This document shows positions 36,613 through 48,107 of a stretch of 64,000 bases of DNA, in pieces (within the stretch, counting starts at the first letter, position 1; each line of letters starts with the position of its first letter). Position numbers and translations under genes: made by a program. The notes under the pieces were generated by a model. That model ran no database searches and had not been told where the DNA came from. It saw only the letters and a list, made by a program, of their open reading frames with translations. The DNA is from Nitzschia sp. pyKryTriq1 (taxonomy: Eukaryota > Bacillariophyta > Bacillariophyceae > Bacillariales > Bacillariaceae). The DNA is taken from assembly GCA_956465555.1 (NCBI GenBank), contig OY101129.1:558001-622000 (forward strand), written 5' to 3'.

Positions 36613-37250
36613 GCAACTTTCAAACCATTCAATGGCGCAACCTAGTAACCCGAAGTGGAAGGATTTCCTCCAGGAGCGGATCCAACAGGAAGGATCATGG
36701 GCGAAGGCGAAATCGGAAGGGCCACTCGACAATCTCGAACCGACGAACAACACAACAACCGAAACGATGAAGCTCGAGGTAGCAGCCTCAGGTGGAGACG
36801 CCACAATGTTGGTAGCCTTGAACGAAGGAGAAGTCAAATTCGTCCACAACATTACCTTGGCGAAGACCCAAGAGGGCTTCGTCTTGGTAACCTCTGCACA
36901 GTCGGGACCGTCCCAAACCGGTTGAGAATCACGAGCCATATCGTACTGGAATCGATCAGAGATCTCTGCCGACTATACGGCGGAAAGAAGACATTCGGAT
37001 TTGACCCTGAAGAAATTGGGAACAAGTCACTACGGTCAGGCGCCGCCATGGCCCTAGCACTTAGCCAACGGAACTACTCAGAAATGAAGATCATGATTTT
37101 GGGGCGGTGGAGATCCAACGCATTCATGGCGTACATCAGACCCCAGATCATCGAACTCACAAGCAACCTCGCTGAGGACATGGTCGACCTTTCAGGAACC
37201 GACGCGAACAACCAAGGCGACGAGATGAGGCTGGATTTCTAGTTCAATGG

Positions 37251-37445: not shown

Positions 37446-38069
37446 TGGCCACCCCCAACGAACGAAGGACAGACAAGAAGTCGAACGAACACCCAAACCC
37501 GAAACCGATACCAAGAGAGACGACCGATGAACCTCATAAGATCATCGAGTCAACCTCGGTATCGCAAATCCCAACTTCGGAATTCTAGATTAATTAGCTT
37601 TAAAAACCCGCCCGCCATCCCTTCACACCTTGACAAGGACGAGGCAAGGAGATGTACCCAAGGGTATCCCCGAGAGAGGACGATCCTGCTACGCAAATCG
37701 GAATCGATCAGGGGCATAGGCCAACGAATTATTTCACTAACAGTACTATACCATCGGTCTACAGTGTCCGAGAGAGTTGAGGGTTTGTTGGCGCCTGCGC
37801 CAACCGGTACGAACGCTGTATTCGTACCGGTCCGTTCAGTGTGTACAGGGGTGTACTAAAGTACCGCAGTACCAGGTACAGTATCGGTACCAGGTACCGG
37901 TACAAGATATTAGTCTACCGGGTACGTTTGCGCGTACATACTGGCACTGCGTACACACACAGTACTGTAGATTATTGAGAGATTGTGTCTGTCCGTCACC
38001 CCAAACGGCTCATCATTTTCATGTCATTGCTGCCGAAGCATCATCATGTTTTGTTATTTTTTCATTTAT

Positions 38070-38085
38070 GGTGGCGTACTAAAAA
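38070..38085 (+). repeat. left terminal inverted repeat of the transposon (right copy 42152-42167)
   Basis: GGTGGCGTACTAAAAA is the exact reverse complement of the right end. TTAT stands immediately outside both ends. Confidence 0.85.
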
Positions 38086-38468
38086 ATATGGGCAGAAAAG
38101 GACTGAATTAGTGTTTCCTGTAGAATCCGGTACTCAAACGTACACGACTGGATCGCAATCTCGCCGAACTAGATAGCCAATTTCGGCGAGCTACTTGGAT
38201 GCATTATATGTGTCAGACGTTAATGTTGCGCATGCAATACTTTTTACTTAGACTGTGTAGATGGTAACTTTTGACTGTTTGGAGAGTTTCCGCACCTTCA
38301 ACGGAAACCTAGTGCCTAGGTAGTCATTTTGTCCTAAATAGCCGGTTTCTAGCCTTCCTAACTTTATACAGACATGAGGAAGTGCGGAACTTTCGGAAAC
38401 TAGGCGAAGTTAACGTCCCTGGCATATATAGAGTAGACTAGTAATGAACTTCTTTCATGTGGGATACT

Positions 38469-41076
38469 TTATTCATCGTCTTCCAGCTGCATTCCATCGA
38501 ACATTGCTATCTCGTCATTTTCACTGTAACATGGAATCTCTTTTGAGTCGTCTGAGTCGCACTCTTCATCCTCGTCTGCAAAGTCGTCCATGGCTGAATT
38601 CCATTCGCGTACCGGTCCACGCAGGGATAAGTACCGTGAGAAAATGTCGCAGCGACATACCAATGCACTGAATATGCGCAATAATACGGATACTCGTAAA
38701 CGAACTGCTGCCAAGGCGCCATAAAGCAATGAGAAAGCACTCACCATAATATACTTCTGCATCCTCGTCCCAGGAAAACATTGCATCATGCCATCGGGCG
38801 ATGTCAAAGTCAAAAGCAGGATGACCAATGCATCGGAAGGATCCAGGAAGATGACCCACACGGTCACATGTCTGGCAGGTAAGTGTTGCATCAAAGGGAG
38901 GAATGGTTACTTGACTTCGTACAAGCTGACACCATGTTTCCATATTATCTTCTTGATATTTGTCATTCCAAGCACAGAATTTAGAGCTGGAGCGACTGTG
39001 CCCAGCAATGCAGCACTTTGTGCAAGTTATGCCGGAAGTCTTCTGTCGTTTGGAGTGTGGCTCATTTGATTGTGGCTCACCGCCAAAAGGTCCAGCCATT
39101 CCTGCACGATAGGTTAGGCCTTTCCGTTCGTCAGCTTTGTCCTTGATAGTTCCTTCCCGAATCTTTTGATTGCGACTTTGACACATGCGTGCCTTGACAT
39201 CAAACCGTTTCTTACGCTTCGACTCTTTGTCCTTTTTGTTGTCCCGTCTCCGCAGATATTCTTTTGTACTGCTCGTCATGGGTATGTCCATTGCACCAAA
39301 TATTTGAGTAAGGGATGCACAATAACCAATACTGTCAAAAAGAACGACCAGGTAAGCTCGACCTTGCTCGGACATGGACTTGCAGAACACCATGTTCTTG
39401 GGAATTGTCGTAGTGAACTGCGAGTTGATGTTTTCGCATTTGTTCGTGTTGTAACCATGATGGATATCGGCTAACCGCTCCTCTTCGCAAAATGTTTTGA
39501 ACAGTGGTAGGAGCCACCCGTACAATTGTGGGAACTTGGCTTTGTCTCGGTAGTACTTCTTCTTCGCATCAAGTTCCTCGGGGGATAAACCTTTAGCCTT
39601 GCACCACGAAGACTCACAATTGTCGTGAACACCAAAATGGTGCTCAAGGGAGTTCATCACTTTGTCACGCATCTGTAGTAACGGTAAGTAGGCATACATA
39701 CGAACGGCGTATCCGACCCCCTTTTTCAAGCGCTCCGCGTCGCATCTTGTCATTCCCATCCGCTCACTCTTCTTTTGTTTCGTTTTAGAAAATAAAAGCT
39801 TCGCAAAATTCTTGATTCGATGATTGATATCTGACAGAAATTTTATTTGGGGATGCTCTGATGGTAGCTGCCCATTTTTGTTTGTTGGCGTCGATGGGTG
39901 AGTTAAGATTTTGCGGACGGACGAATCGTCGTCCATAACAAAAGTATCGATGTAGGCCTGACCTTTGCTCTTTTTCATGATGTCCTTTACGCAGACAACA
40001 GCCCCGTGTGGCTCCATCCCCTTGGAGCTACCCGTGTAGTTCATGGGGCATGGATGATCCTTTGTTTCCTCGTCCATTTCGTCCATTTCTGCGGATTTGT
40101 CCGAAGGCCGGCACTTACTGCATACCTTGCTCATGCAGTGGATGGAAACAACCTTTCCGGTCAGCAGGCCGACAATCAAAAATATGCCTGACATTGCATT
40201 GTAGAGGAAGCCCGATGCTCTTCGACTCCATCGAGTGTCTCCGCCGACAATCAACCCAACAGGTAGATTGGTATCGGCAGGTCCATTTTTGGTACGAGTA
40301 AGCGACATTTCTTTTTGCAGATTGGACATTATCTGTTCCTCACTTATCCTCTTTATTCTCAGGGACAGACGCTCTTCAATGGCCCGGTAGTCGTTCTTGA
40401 GGCATCCGGGTCCAAGATTCAGCATGGCGCCAATGAGCTGGGCTGCCGCTACTCCTTTGCCCATCATCATGCAAAGGAGTACGAGCCGAACATTGAGGTC
40501 GACCTGTTGGTTCTTCGGAATTTTCTTTTCATCCTTCCCACGCATTGTTTCTAACTTGGTGACGTGGTGGCAGTTTTTACACTGCCACCGAAGAGAAGAA
40601 GCGCAACCCTCGACAGTACAAGTCAAGTTTGCCTTGCCCGGCAAACGACAAGCGCGGCAAATGAATGAATCTGCCAGGAATTTCTTCAATTCACTGTAAG
40701 GAAGGAGAACATTGTGGTCTTCGATACTCTCACTCAGTTCGCTCGACTCCGCCGAATGATCGATAATAGTCTTTCTGTTACGGTTCCATCGAATTGTTTG
40801 TGATACATCTCTAGAAACTTCGGAGTTGTTTGTTGACGCTGGAGTAATAGTAGTATTCGTAGACTCCTCATCAAGGCGCCTACGTACGCTGTCCAAAGGA
40901 GTCAAGGGTAGTCGTCGACGACTGTCTGTCAACGTTTGCATAACACCCAAATTATTGAGATCTCGAGACAGGGTCGATCGTTTCGAGCACGATGAATCCT
41001 GGGATTCAGGATCAACATTCTCTATTTCTGGTACATCGGTGTCCCCGCTATCGCTATCGCTATTGTCGTCGCCCAT
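38469..41076 (-). CDS. DDE transposase, Mutator/Kolobok-like (exons 41076-38745 and 38593-38469)
   Basis: An 818-residue protein after removing a 151-bp intron (38594-38744, GTGAGT...TTCAG, phase 1). An acidic/Ser-rich N-terminus leads to a zinc-binding region (SFICRACRLPGK, CTVEGC, CKNCHH). The catalytic core shows GGDTRWSRRASGFLYNAMSG (first Asp about 280), GLLTGKVVSIHCMSKVCSKC, FVMDDDSSVRKIL (second Asp about 382-384), KFLSDINHRIKNFAKLLF, HHFGVHDNCESSWC, and NTNKCENINSQF (Glu about 548). This is the order found in Mutator-like/Kolobok transposases. Two zinc knuckles (C-x2-C-x4-H-x7-C and C-x2-C-x4-H-x6-C) and a very acidic tail supplied by exon 2 end the protein. The frame continues upstream to a GTG; the first ATG is used. 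Confidence 0.78.
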
Positions 41077-41164
41077 TTTAATAATAAACGTTCCAAAAGA
41101 ATCCCCACCGCCGCCGCATTTACAAAAGACTCCTCCCACTGCTCTTCATCGCCGTCTTCATCGA

Positions 41165-41260
41165 TTTTGGCGCCTTCATCGATTTTGGCGCGCCAAAAAG
41201 GAAAAAGAACAAAGGGAACTCCTCCTACCCGTCAATAAATAAAATATGGCGCGCCCATTG
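41165..41260. promoter_or_regulatory. bidirectional transposon promoter with E2F-like palindromes
   Basis: The core is TTTTGGCGCGCCAAAA (41183-41198), a perfect 16-bp palindrome that contains the E2F consensus TTTSGCGC on each strand. An adjacent half copy CGATTTTGGCGC (41162-41173) repeats CGATTTTGGCGC at 41180-41191, and ATGGCGCGCCC lies at 41246-41256. It sits between the two divergent transposon genes, about 110 bp from the transposase ATG and 250 bp from the other ATG. Cell-cycle control is inference. Confidence 0.5.
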
Positions 41261-41445
41261 AAGATTTATGGGCGTCGCCTCTGATGTAGTCGTATTTTCT
41301 TCGTCGTCGTTTTCCGAATCCTTCCCTTTGCGCCGTCGCCCTTTGTATTCCGCCGCCGCTGCCGCCGCTGCCACTACTTCATTATTTTATTTCCCCGGTT
41401 GATTGCTGTTTTATTATTATCATTATCATCACCATCATCATCATC

Positions 41446-41907
41446 ATGCTCTCCAACCCTGCTCGTCGCAATGAAAGATGCGCCAATGTGAGAAACAACA
41501 ACAACAACAACAACAACAACGGTGACGACGAGGCCTCTTTTGTCGTCCTTGACGACGCCGGCCACTTACCTTTCGGACCAGAGCCCGACTTGGCCGACAT
41601 GCCAGAGCCAGAGCAAGAGCCGGAAGAGCCATTTTATTGCAGCCAATGCAACGAAATCGTTTGCATTTGGCTGCAGCTGTATGGTTTTGTTGCTGAAATG
41701 GAGAGCATCGTCGAACCGCCTCGTGTCGACGACGAAAAAGCGGATCGATCGCGTGCTCGAAAGGTGCTCTATCGAGCCATCACGATGCACCTTTTCGGAC
41801 CGCTCGGACGCGGAAATCGTGTGAAGCTCCCAGCATGCGTTTTAGAGGGAGTACGCGCTATGTATCCCGATCCGGACGAGCAATACATGGGCCACTACGA
41901 CAGCTAA
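41446..41907 (+). CDS. small transposon protein with P2X7 intracellular (ballast)-like domain
   Basis: A 153-residue protein inside the transposon, divergent from the transposase. After an Asn-run and a Pro/Glu-rich stretch comes FYCSQCNEIVCIWLQLYG, a Cys cluster, then ARKVLYRAITMHLFGPLGRG, NRVKLPACVLEGVRAMYPD and EQYMGHY. The order YR...FG....(I/L)LP.C....(I/V)R..(F/Y)P....QY.G(F/H) matches the C-terminal zinc/GTP-binding ballast domain of vertebrate P2X7, and the GPLGRGNR form is what I associate with free-standing relatives of that domain. In P2X7 this part binds zinc and guanine nucleotides; its role in a transposon is unknown. It could be an accessory factor for transposition. No transmembrane helix is present. 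Confidence 0.62.
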   Translation: MLSNPARRNERCANVRNNNNNNNNNGDDEASFVVLDDAGHLPFGPEPDLADMPEPEQEPEEPFYCSQCNEIVCIWLQLYGFVAEMESIVEPPRVDDEKADRSRARKVLYRAITMHLFGPLGRGNRVKLPACVLEGVRAMYPDPDEQYMGHYDS

Positions 41908-42151
41908 ATTTGTCGCGAGAAATGAAATCCCGTCTTCGCTTGTTTGATGTCTTCCGTCCGAAACGGTCATCATTTATGGGAGACGTGTTCTCTACTTTAT
42001 TCGATCTTAGTGAATGGATAACATATAAAAATTTCATCATGGAATCTCTATTGATTATTCTTGTTCATTTTAGACTGCTGATTCGAGAATTCCGTCACGG
42101 TAAGATTCCAAAATGACCAATCCGGGAAGTCGAACCAAAATCCTGCAAATA
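41908..42151. other. right internal end of transposon
   Basis: 244 bp between the accessory gene and the terminal repeat; AT-rich, with no gene seen. The matching left end (38086-38468) holds the inverted pair CTCGCCGAA/TTCGGCGAG at 38160-38191. Confidence 0.5.
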
Positions 42152-42315
42152 TTTTTAGTACGCCACCTTATGTCATCATGTTGTTTAGAGTTACGAGGAC
42201 TGTACGAGTATCAGACCGATCAACCTGTACCACTATTATTCGTACCCTTCCTCTGCTCTACTAGTAGACTACACTCAGTCTAATTGCAAGTCAGTAGTAG
42301 TATTGTGCTGGTACG

Positions 42316-43757
42316 ATGCCACCCTCGACGAATCATCATCCAAATCGCAATATTAATTCCGCCAATTATTGGGGGGTCAGTAGCAGCGTGGTGGATGCCT
42401 GGTTATCCAAGGCGATCCGGCGGGTGGTGTTCGTCTCGCTGGTGGTCCATTTGTTGCTACTGGTGAAGAATAGTTCGAAATCGACAGGAAGATGGCTGGA
42501 ATCTATTGCCGCCTTTCAAGATTTGGAGGACTTTCCAACAATGTCCTTTTGGGGTGAAGCAACACACGAAGTATTAGAAAGGAATAACGACACTCATTAT
42601 CTCAATGCTAGTGATGCGGCTACCAGTAAGAATGGAACAAGAAAACAACAACAATTATTGTCATCTGCCGACATTCGAGCCCCACGCACGACGCATCGGA
42701 TTCCTCTCGAAGAATTAATTCACAGCAGTCCAAACGTCACATGCAATCCTGGAAAGTCCAAGAAATATTTGATCGACAGCACAATCAATTTATCCGAAAA
42801 CAGCCACAACAATTCTTCTTCCCGCCGCAAAATCCCCAAGATTGTGCACGTCACTTCCAAAACACGTTGCATGACTCCCACCTTTATTCGCAATATTGAC
42901 AAGTGGCGCTTTCCGGGCTATTCCTTGCTGTTTCATGACGATGCGGCCGTCGATCGGCTCTTGGCGAAATATTGGCCGGAATTCCCTCAGTTGCAACTCT
43001 TTCAAAAATGCAGTATCTCGGGGGCAGCCAAGGCGGACATCTGGAGACTGTTGGTCCTATGGGAATATGGCGGCATTTATACAGGTACGTACTCGTGCGT
43101 GTATACCGTACCACAAGTACTATGTACATGTTTGTTCCAAACAAGCAAGCAAGAAAACGTATCTCACGTTCTTCTATCACAGATATTGACAATGCTCCTG
43201 GTCCCAAATTTGACAATGGAAATATTATTCAAGACGACGACGATGCTTGGTTTGTCGTCGAGCGAGTGGGTGTCCTGAGCCAGTATTTCATGGCGGCATC
43301 ACCGAAACATCCATTGATCCATGTCGCCCTTACTTCCCTATTTCAACGATTGTTGGAGGTGGAAAATATCCGTAAACAATATGTACCCTTTGTCACTGGA
43401 CCCGGGGCGATGAAAGTGGCAATGATGAACTTTATGAAAGACGGCAAAAAGCTATTTAAGAAAGGAGTCAAGCGGGGCAAGTACATTGGGGTGGCTGGTC
43501 GAAGTGTCACAGTCGTTGGATCGAAAGGAAAAGCTACAGAGTATGTCAGGCGGGAATCCGTTTCGGGTATTGACAAAAGGGGAGGATATGTGGCCATGGG
43601 AATGCAACATTTTTCCGGCAAAAAGGGCAGAGACCAAGCGCCCACCAGTTCCTGCTATGAGCACCTGTATAAGGAGACCAAGAAGCTTGTGAATGAACAG
43701 CGTCTGCAGGCGGAGAAGGACTGGCAATCGTCAACGACGGCAACGACAATGACGTAA
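42316..43757 (+). CDS. DXD sugar transferase, GT32-like, paralogue A (exons 42316-43084 and 43183-43757)
   Basis: Spliced length 447 residues. A signal anchor (RVVFVSLVVHLLLLVKN) lies near residue 40, followed by an Asn-rich stem. The catalytic part has KIPKIVHVTSKTRCMTPTF, YSLLFHDDAAVDRLLAKYWP, CSISGAAKADIWRLLVLWEY, GGIYTDIDNAPGPKF with the metal-binding DXD at 257-259, then DDDAWFVVERVGVLSQYFMA and VTGPGAMKVAMMNF. This is the layout of OCH1-like alpha-mannosyl/other sugar transferases of the Golgi. The 98-bp intron (43085-43182, GTACGT...CACAG, phase 1) splits the first Asp codon of DXD. Its sister is at 46546-48107. Start codon is an ATG; acceptor unknown. Confidence 0.85.
43085..43182 (+). 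other. intron splitting the DXD motif, paralogue A
   Basis: 98 bp, GTACGT donor, ATCACAG acceptor, phase 1; joins G to ATATTGAC to form Asp-Ile-Asp. Confidence 0.85.
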
Positions 43758-46545: not shown

Positions 46546-48107
46546 ATGGTGGATAAAACAATAATCGAAGCCAATAATCCAACACATCCACACCGATTTG
46601 TGATTGGCAAATTCGTCCTCTTACTGTGCCTAACGGGCCACTTGCTTTTCTCGGTCTTCACGTGGTCCACGACAACCGACACGTGGCTGGCCACTCTGTC
46701 CGCATCGTCGCCATCATCAGTGTTGTCGGGGGAGGAGATCATCATGTCTGCTTCAGGAGGCGGCGATGATGATTCCCGTCATTATCATTTGCCGATTTAT
46801 GCTGCCAAACAAGAATTTTCGACGGTCTTTTCCACCGACAACAACGAATACCACGATCTTCGTGCGCCCCTGTATTCCGATCGAATACCCTTGATGGATC
46901 TGGTGCAAACTACTGGACCATCAGATCCAGCATGCCATTCTACTTCAGCCAAATTCAACATGTCCATCTTCGATTCCATCATTGTCGAAAAGAGCACAGC
47001 CACATCCACTACTCAGAATACTCAAACGAGTGCTAAACGAAAGATACCCAAAATGATTCACATGACGTCCAAAAGCCGATGTCTTACTTCCAAAATCAAG
47101 GACAATATTATCAAGTGGAAAGAAGAATTGCCAGACCATTCCATCTACTTTCATGATGACGCTGCGGTCGACAGGTTACTTTCCAAGTATTTTCCTGGCT
47201 TTCCTCATTTGCAGAATGTCAAAGCATGCAGCATCTCGGGGGCGGCCGTGGCCGATATTTGGCGGTATCTAGTTCTATGGGAATATGGTGGCATTTATGC
47301 AGGCAAGAAGAAGTTATCTGTATTTGCAAGGAGTGTTGCTCGTGGAAGTAGTGAGGGTCTTTGTTTTTTGCTAACCCTCTCTCTTGCGCTTGTTTTGTTT
47401 TTCATCCTCTCTCTCTCCATCTCTCTCTCTCTCTCTCTCTCTTTACTACGGATGCACTACCCGTGTGTATTTTAGACATTGATAGTGCACCGGGGCCGAA
47501 ATTCGCTGGAGGGTCGGTCATTGACGACAATGATGACGCATGGTTCGTGGTGGAACGGATTGGTGTCCTGGGCCAGTATTTCATGGCATCGAGTCCCCAT
47601 CATCCCATCATGTACCTAGCGTTGATGCAATGCCTCGCAAGGTTGGTCAGCTTGGTCGATTCCATTGGAACGCAGTACGTGCCATATATCACTGGACCGG
47701 GTGTGACCAGAGCGGCCATGATGCTATTCATGAAAGACAAAGACAATTTTCAAACAGTCACAGCGGGGACCTACAAGGGTTTGGGTGGACGGACTGTCAC
47801 TGTGGCCGGAGACCGTGCCCATAGCGACGAGTGGATCGAAAGGGACGCCGTCCGGGGCAAGCAACAGGAGTACACTGCCATGGAGATGAAACATTTTGTA
47901 AGTTTTTGTTTTTATTGATTCGTAACATTGCTGATCGGTTGTTAGAACGGTTCTGGCCTTTCTGTTACTCACTATCACCTCGCATCCTTCCTTCTTTGGT
48001 GTTAGAGCAAAACCAAGAACGAGAAATTCAAGGATTCTTGTTACGAGCACATGTATAAGAAAGCCATCGAGGCAATGGAAGAATCATCAACAGGCAATCA
48101 TCCGTAA
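46546..48107 (+). CDS. DXD sugar transferase, GT32-like, paralogue B (exons 46546-47302, 47476-47897, 48006-48107)
   Basis: Three exons give 426 residues. Membrane anchor FVLLLCLTGHLLFSVFTW near residue 30; catalytic part with KIPKMIHMTSKSRCLTSKI, IYFHDDAAVDRLLSKYFPGF, CSISGAAVADIWRYLVLWEY, GGIYADIDSAPGPKF (DXD 253-255), DDAWFVVERIGVLGQYFMAS and ITGPGVTRAAMMLFMKD. The end CYEHMYKKAIEAMEES matches the CYEHLYKE end of paralogue A. Intron 1 (47303-47475) starts AG-GCAAGA, a GC-AG intron at the very place where paralogue A has a GT-AG intron, in phase 1 within DXD. Intron 2 (47898-48005, GTAAGT...TTAG, phase 0) is absent from A. Same orientation as A, about 2.8 kb apart: a local duplication. Confidence 0.83.
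47303..47475 (+). other. GC-AG intron splitting the DXD motif, paralogue B
   Basis: 173 bp. The donor is AG/GCAAGA, the usual shape of GC donors; the acceptor TTTTAG follows a long CT tract (47405-47442). The junction gives GCAG-ACATTGAT, coding Ala-Asp-Ile-Asp. Confidence 0.75.
47898..48005 (+). other. second intron of paralogue B
   Basis: 108 bp, GTAAGT donor, GTTAG acceptor, phase 0, with a stop in frame when retained. Confidence 0.75.

Follow-up and report, generated by a model that had tools for sequence, protein, structure and literature searches.

A probable Kolobok-type transposon of a Nitzschia diatom carries a gene for a protein resembling the P2X7 ballast domain

Results

An element with perfect ends and two divergent genes

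The window analyzed here is a stretch of 64,000 nucleotides from the diatom Nitzschia sp. pyKryTriq1 (assembly GCA_956465555.1, contig OY101129.1, positions 558,001 to 622,000 of the forward strand). A first-pass annotation had placed in it a DNA transposon that encodes, beside its transposase, a protein similar to the ballast domain of P2X7, whose structure has been solved and includes sites for zinc and for guanine nucleotides. The element extends from position 38070 to 42167 (4098 bp; Table 1). Its annotated 16-bp terminal inverted repeats were identical at 16/16 positions with TTAT on both sides, and the open DDE transposase frame (836 codons from the ATG at 41076, minus strand) as well as the divergent 153-residue protein were likewise recovered. 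As a control for chance, inverted pairs flanked by TTWW were sought in overlapping 8-kb tiles. None was present in the 14 other tiles of the window, nor did 200 order-1 Markov copies made from a single 8-kb locus contain any, so pairs like the ends of the element do not readily arise by chance. The target duplication measures 4 bp, unlike that of MuDR/Mutator elements, which is about 8-11 bp long.

Table 1. Features of the element in the window and of related elements in the genome
Feature	Position	Strand	Remarks
Left target-site copy, TTAT	38066..38069		
Left terminal inverted repeat, GGTGGCGTACTAAAAA	38070..38085	+	
Transposase gene, PF20700	38469..41076	-	profile match; residues assigned by eye
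Candidate transposase intron	38594..38744	-	151 nt, GTGAGT donor; model only
Spacer between divergent start codons	41077..41445		369 bp; presumed shared promoter region
KolX-like ballast-domain protein	41446..41907	+	153 aa; candidate zinc ligands C65, C68, C73, C131
Right terminal inverted repeat, reverse complement of GGTGGCGTACTAAAAA	42152..42167	-	16/16 identical
Right target-site copy, TTAT	42168..42171		
Subfamily A copy with both ends	window		
Subfamily A copy with both ends	C5:91552-93003		
Subfamily A copy with both ends	C2:2921109-2922342		
Subfamily A copy with both ends	C17:25214-27009		
Subfamily A copy with both ends	C1:884122-885017		
Subfamily B element	L041		2645 bp
Subfamily B element	L042		1615 bp
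Subfamily B element	L043		1560 bp
Subfamily B element	L045		2496 bp
Subfamily C element, perfect ends GGTGGCACACACCAGT	L058:3298-5475		2178 bp; TTAA on both sides

The first-pass annotation had named Mutator-like and Kolobok families as candidates for the transposase. In a Pfam profile search the frame matched PF20700, which Pfam calls 'Mutator-like transposase', with an E-value of 4.6e-49, and no other family at E<=1; a piggyBac-type transposase was thus not indicated. No second PF20700 match was found in the genome. By eye we assigned D280, DDD382-384 (one D being the catalytic candidate), D416-I-N-H419 and E548, a finger-like H479..C492 between DxxH and E548, a further finger-like motif after the first D (C319xxC322..H341xC343) and zinc-knuckle-like motifs at the C-terminus. 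The annotated intron is plausible as a model but unproven; splicing would yield an 818-aa product with an acidic tail.

Comparisons with the literature refer to portions of the papers cited. According to Kojima and Bao (2022, PMC9587614), Kolobok elements are marked by 4-bp TTAA flanks, by 5'-RR and YY-3' termini and by a DDE transposase bearing C/DxxH, to which most lineages add a zinc finger before E. The termini of all three subfamilies described below are GG...CC, and their 4-bp flanks are TTAA at nine of 14 A ends and on both sides of every B and C element examined. DxxH and the finger before E were recognized by eye in the window transposase and are kept in the subfamily B element L041. 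Since TTAA flanks, GG/CC termini and DxxH with finger are published Kolobok marks, we read the PF20700 protein as a putative Kolobok-type DDE transposase, despite the domain name given by Pfam.

Ballast-like protein genes lie inside elements of three subfamilies

The genome (40.65 Mb, 20 contigs) contains at least 10 matches to the 331-bp left end. All seven places found to be similar to P2RX7_C (PF20478) lie between inverted-repeat pairs, which bears out the assignment of the small protein to the transposon; they fall into three subfamilies. Among the loci examined, five copies of subfamily A have both ends. The four outside the window are internal-deletion derivatives, whose aligned pieces are 97.8-100% identical to the window copy; from this identity we infer recent movement of subfamily A. 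The first-pass annotation had proposed that both genes travel together; among the copies examined, only the window copy keeps both whole. The small open reading frame (ORF) is intact at 99% identity in C17:25214-27009, where the transposase is gone, and has its middle replaced in C5:91552-93003. Copies with the same ends and no trace of the small protein had been named as evidence against its belonging to the element. Such copies do occur at C2 and C1, but these deletion derivatives also lack the transposase.

The 14 readable subfamily A flanks (8 left and 6 right ends) consist of nine TTAA, two TTAT, both belonging to the window copy, and three with neither. Left ends at C6 and C15:1303583 and an identical right end at C5:2486383 stand outside this count. 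Subfamily A normally targets TTAA, and TTAT is the window copy's own site. The left ends at C17:27009, C1:885017 and C2:2922342 are not adjacent to TTAA, while their right ends are; the C17 and C1 copies lack the first two left-end bases, both at the same point.

Subfamily B (GGTGGATATGTA...) is flanked by TTAA on both sides in 4/4 elements examined. In L041 a transposase remnant survives, with recognizable second-D, DxxH, finger and E motifs. Its identity to the window transposase amounts to 29% in the aligned part, compared with 61-64% between the small proteins of A and B. In L042, L043, L045, L046 and L058 no transposase match was obtained at E<=1.

The single subfamily C element encodes a longer ballast-type protein of 385 aa (L058:3906-5066, minus strand) that matched P2RX7_C over profile positions 88-192 with an E-value of 3.5e-4. 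Its N-terminal part gave no Pfam match and looks slightly OB-fold-like by eye, and a PDB search returned no credible solved relative of the protein. A zinc-knuckle frame is arranged tail to tail with this gene, in contrast to the divergent pair in the window. We rejected this frame (L058:3353-3904) as the subfamily C transposase. The zinc knuckle scored below cut-off, and a collinear alignment to the tail of the window transposase was not significant (E 0.004 in a two-sequence comparison lacking composition correction; hhalign probability 2.6%).

Small-protein fragments at C11:352375, C13:601904, C10:204641, C10:212862 and C5:2243385 had no inverted-repeat pair around them in the stretches examined, although the one at C5:2243385 does have a right end with TTAA. 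Weak matches (E 0.003-0.54) were seen at C6 (two), C1 and C3. Scans of viral and genome contigs for bacterial or viral relatives gave no true relative, the sole match (L059) being, by eye, an amidohydrolase-like frame that shares a chance octamer.

Likeness of the small protein to the P2X7 ballast domain

The annotated likeness to the P2X7 C-terminus was found by profile, but below the family's threshold: the whole 153-aa protein matched P2RX7_C with an E-value of 6.9e-4 and 20.0 bits and residues 59-153 scored 21.2 bits, so that neither reached the curated cut-off of 23.5 bits, nor did the proteins of subfamilies B (16.0 bits) and C (21.0 bits). A profile search of the PDB ranked P2X7 first, with an E-value of 0.14, and a single-sequence phmmer search of the PDB with the window protein did not find it. 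The full-length structure model (pLDDT 39) was discarded. With a low-confidence model of residues 59-153, all of the 11 best Foldseek matches were P2X7, placed on residues 473-589. Pfam, PDB profile and Foldseek, each of them weak, agree in pointing to a putative ballast fold like that described for the second protein of Kol0 Kolobok elements. We conclude that the resemblance of the predicted protein to the P2X7 ballast domain is real, even though it stays below the Pfam cut-off.

Counterparts of P2X7 residues Y550, C572, R578 and Y/F581-P582 are recognizable in the small protein, which has the motif L-P-x-C...R..Y-P.....Y.G in common with the P2X7 ballast and the Nanor/ZCD proteins (PMC7016195). 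It differs from P2X7 in that Pfam detected no P2X channel domain in the 153 residues and in that the second cysteine cluster is absent from A and B. The domain contains four cysteines (65, 68, 73 and 131), a further one (12) lying outside; the B protein has the same four counterparts plus one other, and the C protein has six. Because four domain cysteines stand against seven conserved zinc cysteines in published KolX, the ballast-fold protein encoded by Kol0 (PMC9587614), the A and B proteins are suggested to have one four-Cys zinc site. The zinc-sensing partner proposed in the first-pass annotation would have a zinc site reduced to these four candidate ligands.

Rat P2X7 contacts GDP through R546, H547, R574, R578 and K583 (PMC7016195). 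In the PDB profile alignment the subfamily A protein keeps counterparts of two of these five, R546 and R578, whereas H547, R574 and K583 are replaced by K, L and D, respectively. Metazoan ZCD proteins outside P2X7 also keep only a subset (R546, H547 and R578; PMC7016195), so that the pattern neither proves nor excludes binding. Nucleotide sensing, the other role that had been proposed, is thus weakly supported by the residues retained.

Selection on the small protein

Between A and B the small-protein genes differ over 137 codons with a dS of 1.03 and a dN of 0.278 (simple Nei-Gojobori count), corresponding to a dN/dS of about 0.27. The B copies at C5 and C4 show three synonymous and no non-synonymous differences in 194 codons. 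The noncoding stretch between the small ORF and the right end (41908-42090) is also conserved relative to L041, L042 and L045, with 39 identical consecutive bases, despite different outermost ends in A and B. It could be a binding region for the transposase or the KolX-like protein.

Discussion

The locus is probably a diatom DNA transposon of Kolobok type that moves by cut and paste and has two divergent genes, one for the transposase and a KolX-like one whose product would have a reduced P2X7 ballast fold and serve as a zinc-stabilized accessory factor. What has been observed of this explanation comprises the ends with their 4-bp flanks, the family of the transposase, the likeness of the small protein to the domain, its place inside such elements and the synonymous excess between subfamilies. 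Mechanistically, the transposase would bind the 16-bp ends and excise the element, which would insert at TTAA-like sites, duplicating 4 bp. The KolX-like protein would be expressed from the shared divergent spacer, fold around one zinc site formed by the four cysteines and help transposition by binding either the transposase or the subterminal DNA of the element.

Several observations weigh against this interpretation. A THAP domain, usual in Kolobok transposases (PMC6004289), was not detected in the window transposase at E<=1, although THAP is not named as defining Kolobok in the part of PMC9587614 cited here. Among recent copies no constraint is visible, since all differences between the window and C17 (0 synonymous, 1 non-synonymous) and between the B copies at C5 and C3 (0 and 3) are non-synonymous. 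Moreover, conservation between A and B extends to part of the noncoding right-hand stretch, so some of that near the small ORF may serve the DNA and not the protein.

The absence of visible selection among very close copies would also be expected if the small ORF were a functionless passenger, a host gene fragment captured by chance (transduplication). Movement of several copies that lack an intact small ORF fits this view, and the ends alone suffice for non-autonomous derivatives. We nevertheless regard such a capture as unlikely: none of the seven P2RX7_C-like places found lies outside such an element, the protein is common to two subfamilies although their transposases share just 29% identity over the aligned part, the dN/dS between A and B points to constraint, and Kol0 elements regularly carry KolX as their second gene (PMC9587614). 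Slightly less probable still is convergence on a short motif of cysteines and aromatic residues in an unrelated transposon protein. The scores below the curated cut-off, the second P2X7 cysteine cluster that is not recognizable in A and B, and the failure of phmmer to reach P2X7, which the profile reached only at E 0.14, would fit this idea; against it, the Pfam profile, the PDB ranking and the fold search agree with one another and with the genomic context, and subfamily C gives its own, longer match inside another element with perfect inverted repeats and TTAA flanks.

The main rival to a helper role leaves the identity of the protein unchanged and concerns its function. It may be a regulator of the element, a repressor or silencing antagonist, possibly gated by zinc or guanine nucleotides. 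The divergent gene arrangement, the intact small ORF of the C17 copy that persists without a transposase, and the R546 and R578 counterparts are compatible with regulation, while the loss of the H547, R574 and K583 counterparts and the small number of copies speak against it, and a role in sensing or repression is putative. We give this function a minor but appreciable probability; present evidence does not separate it from the helper role.

The proposal that a transposon spread the domain before P2X7 acquired it is supported and already in print: Kol0 elements encode KolX, which has a ballast fold and from which P2X7 and probably Nanor were derived (Kojima and Bao 2022, PMC9587614). In this view animals would have captured a relative of the diatom protein as the ballast of P2X7. 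New here are the diatom host, the reduced cysteine set and possibly a transposase outside Kol0. The element shares with Kol0 (type Kolobok-1_XT) the TTAA-type 4-bp flanks, the RR/YY termini and a DDE transposase in which DxxH and a finger precede E; its second gene, too, apparently encodes a protein whose C-terminal domain is similar to the P2X7 ballast. It differs in its host, Kol0 having been placed in animals (PMC9587614), in having four instead of seven candidate zinc cysteines, in the missing THAP match and in the TTAT target of the window copy. A CxxC..HxC finger after the first D is listed for KolobokP, E, D, 5 and a few solitary families, not for Kol0 (PMC9587614); C319xxC322..H341xC343 may be this CCHC finger. 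A few piggyBac families also carry proteins with ballast fragments (PMC9587614), from which the PF20700 transposase and the GG/CC termini set the present element apart.

The ballast domain was not found in fungi, plants, bacteria or Monosiga and was called an invention of Metazoa (Rump 2020, PMC7016195). A diatom Kolobok (Fragilariopsis cylindrus) is mentioned in PMC9587614, with its KolX content not stated in the portion cited. Besides that paper we found none, in the library searched, on KolX or on a P2X7 ballast together with a transposon, though subscription papers or Repbase may hold a diatom KolX; Pfam and InterPro domain names led to papers that, by title, dealt only with P2X7 or unrelated subjects. 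Tentatively, and with a little less than even confidence, we suggest that the ballast domain is an old Kolobok protein distributed across distant eukaryotes and not an animal invention, the diatom having a minimal four-Cys, probably single-zinc form. Because the diatom transposase may lie outside Kol0, the pairing of the two genes would be older than Kol0 or have arisen repeatedly.

If a diatom transposon carries a stripped-down ballast, the range of the domain extends outside animals. The minimal form points to the residues retained, namely the four cysteines and the counterparts of R546, Y550, C572, R578 and Y581-P582. The role of the zinc and guanine-nucleotide sites of the P2X7 ballast has been called unknown (PMC9859053), and the element offers a transposition system for testing the original job of the domain.

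Surroundings of the element

Three of the eight frames scanned around the element belong to the glycosyltransferase DXD family PF04488 (34967-36112, minus strand; 42316-43278 and 46546-47475, plus strand). A frame of 195 aa at 36655-37242 (plus strand) had no Pfam match at E<=0.001 and resembles, by eye, the catalytic end of a mobile-element tyrosine recombinase. Elsewhere in the genome, the silicon-transporter family PF03842 matched at eight places, seven of them with E-values below 1e-260; of 14 control genomes one matched, below the cut-off. The silicon-transporter matches by themselves mark the genome as very probably that of a diatom. Light-harvesting matches numbered 72, and L055 was most similar to chains of PDB 9vfj, with fucoxanthin chlorophyll a/c proteins ranking lower.
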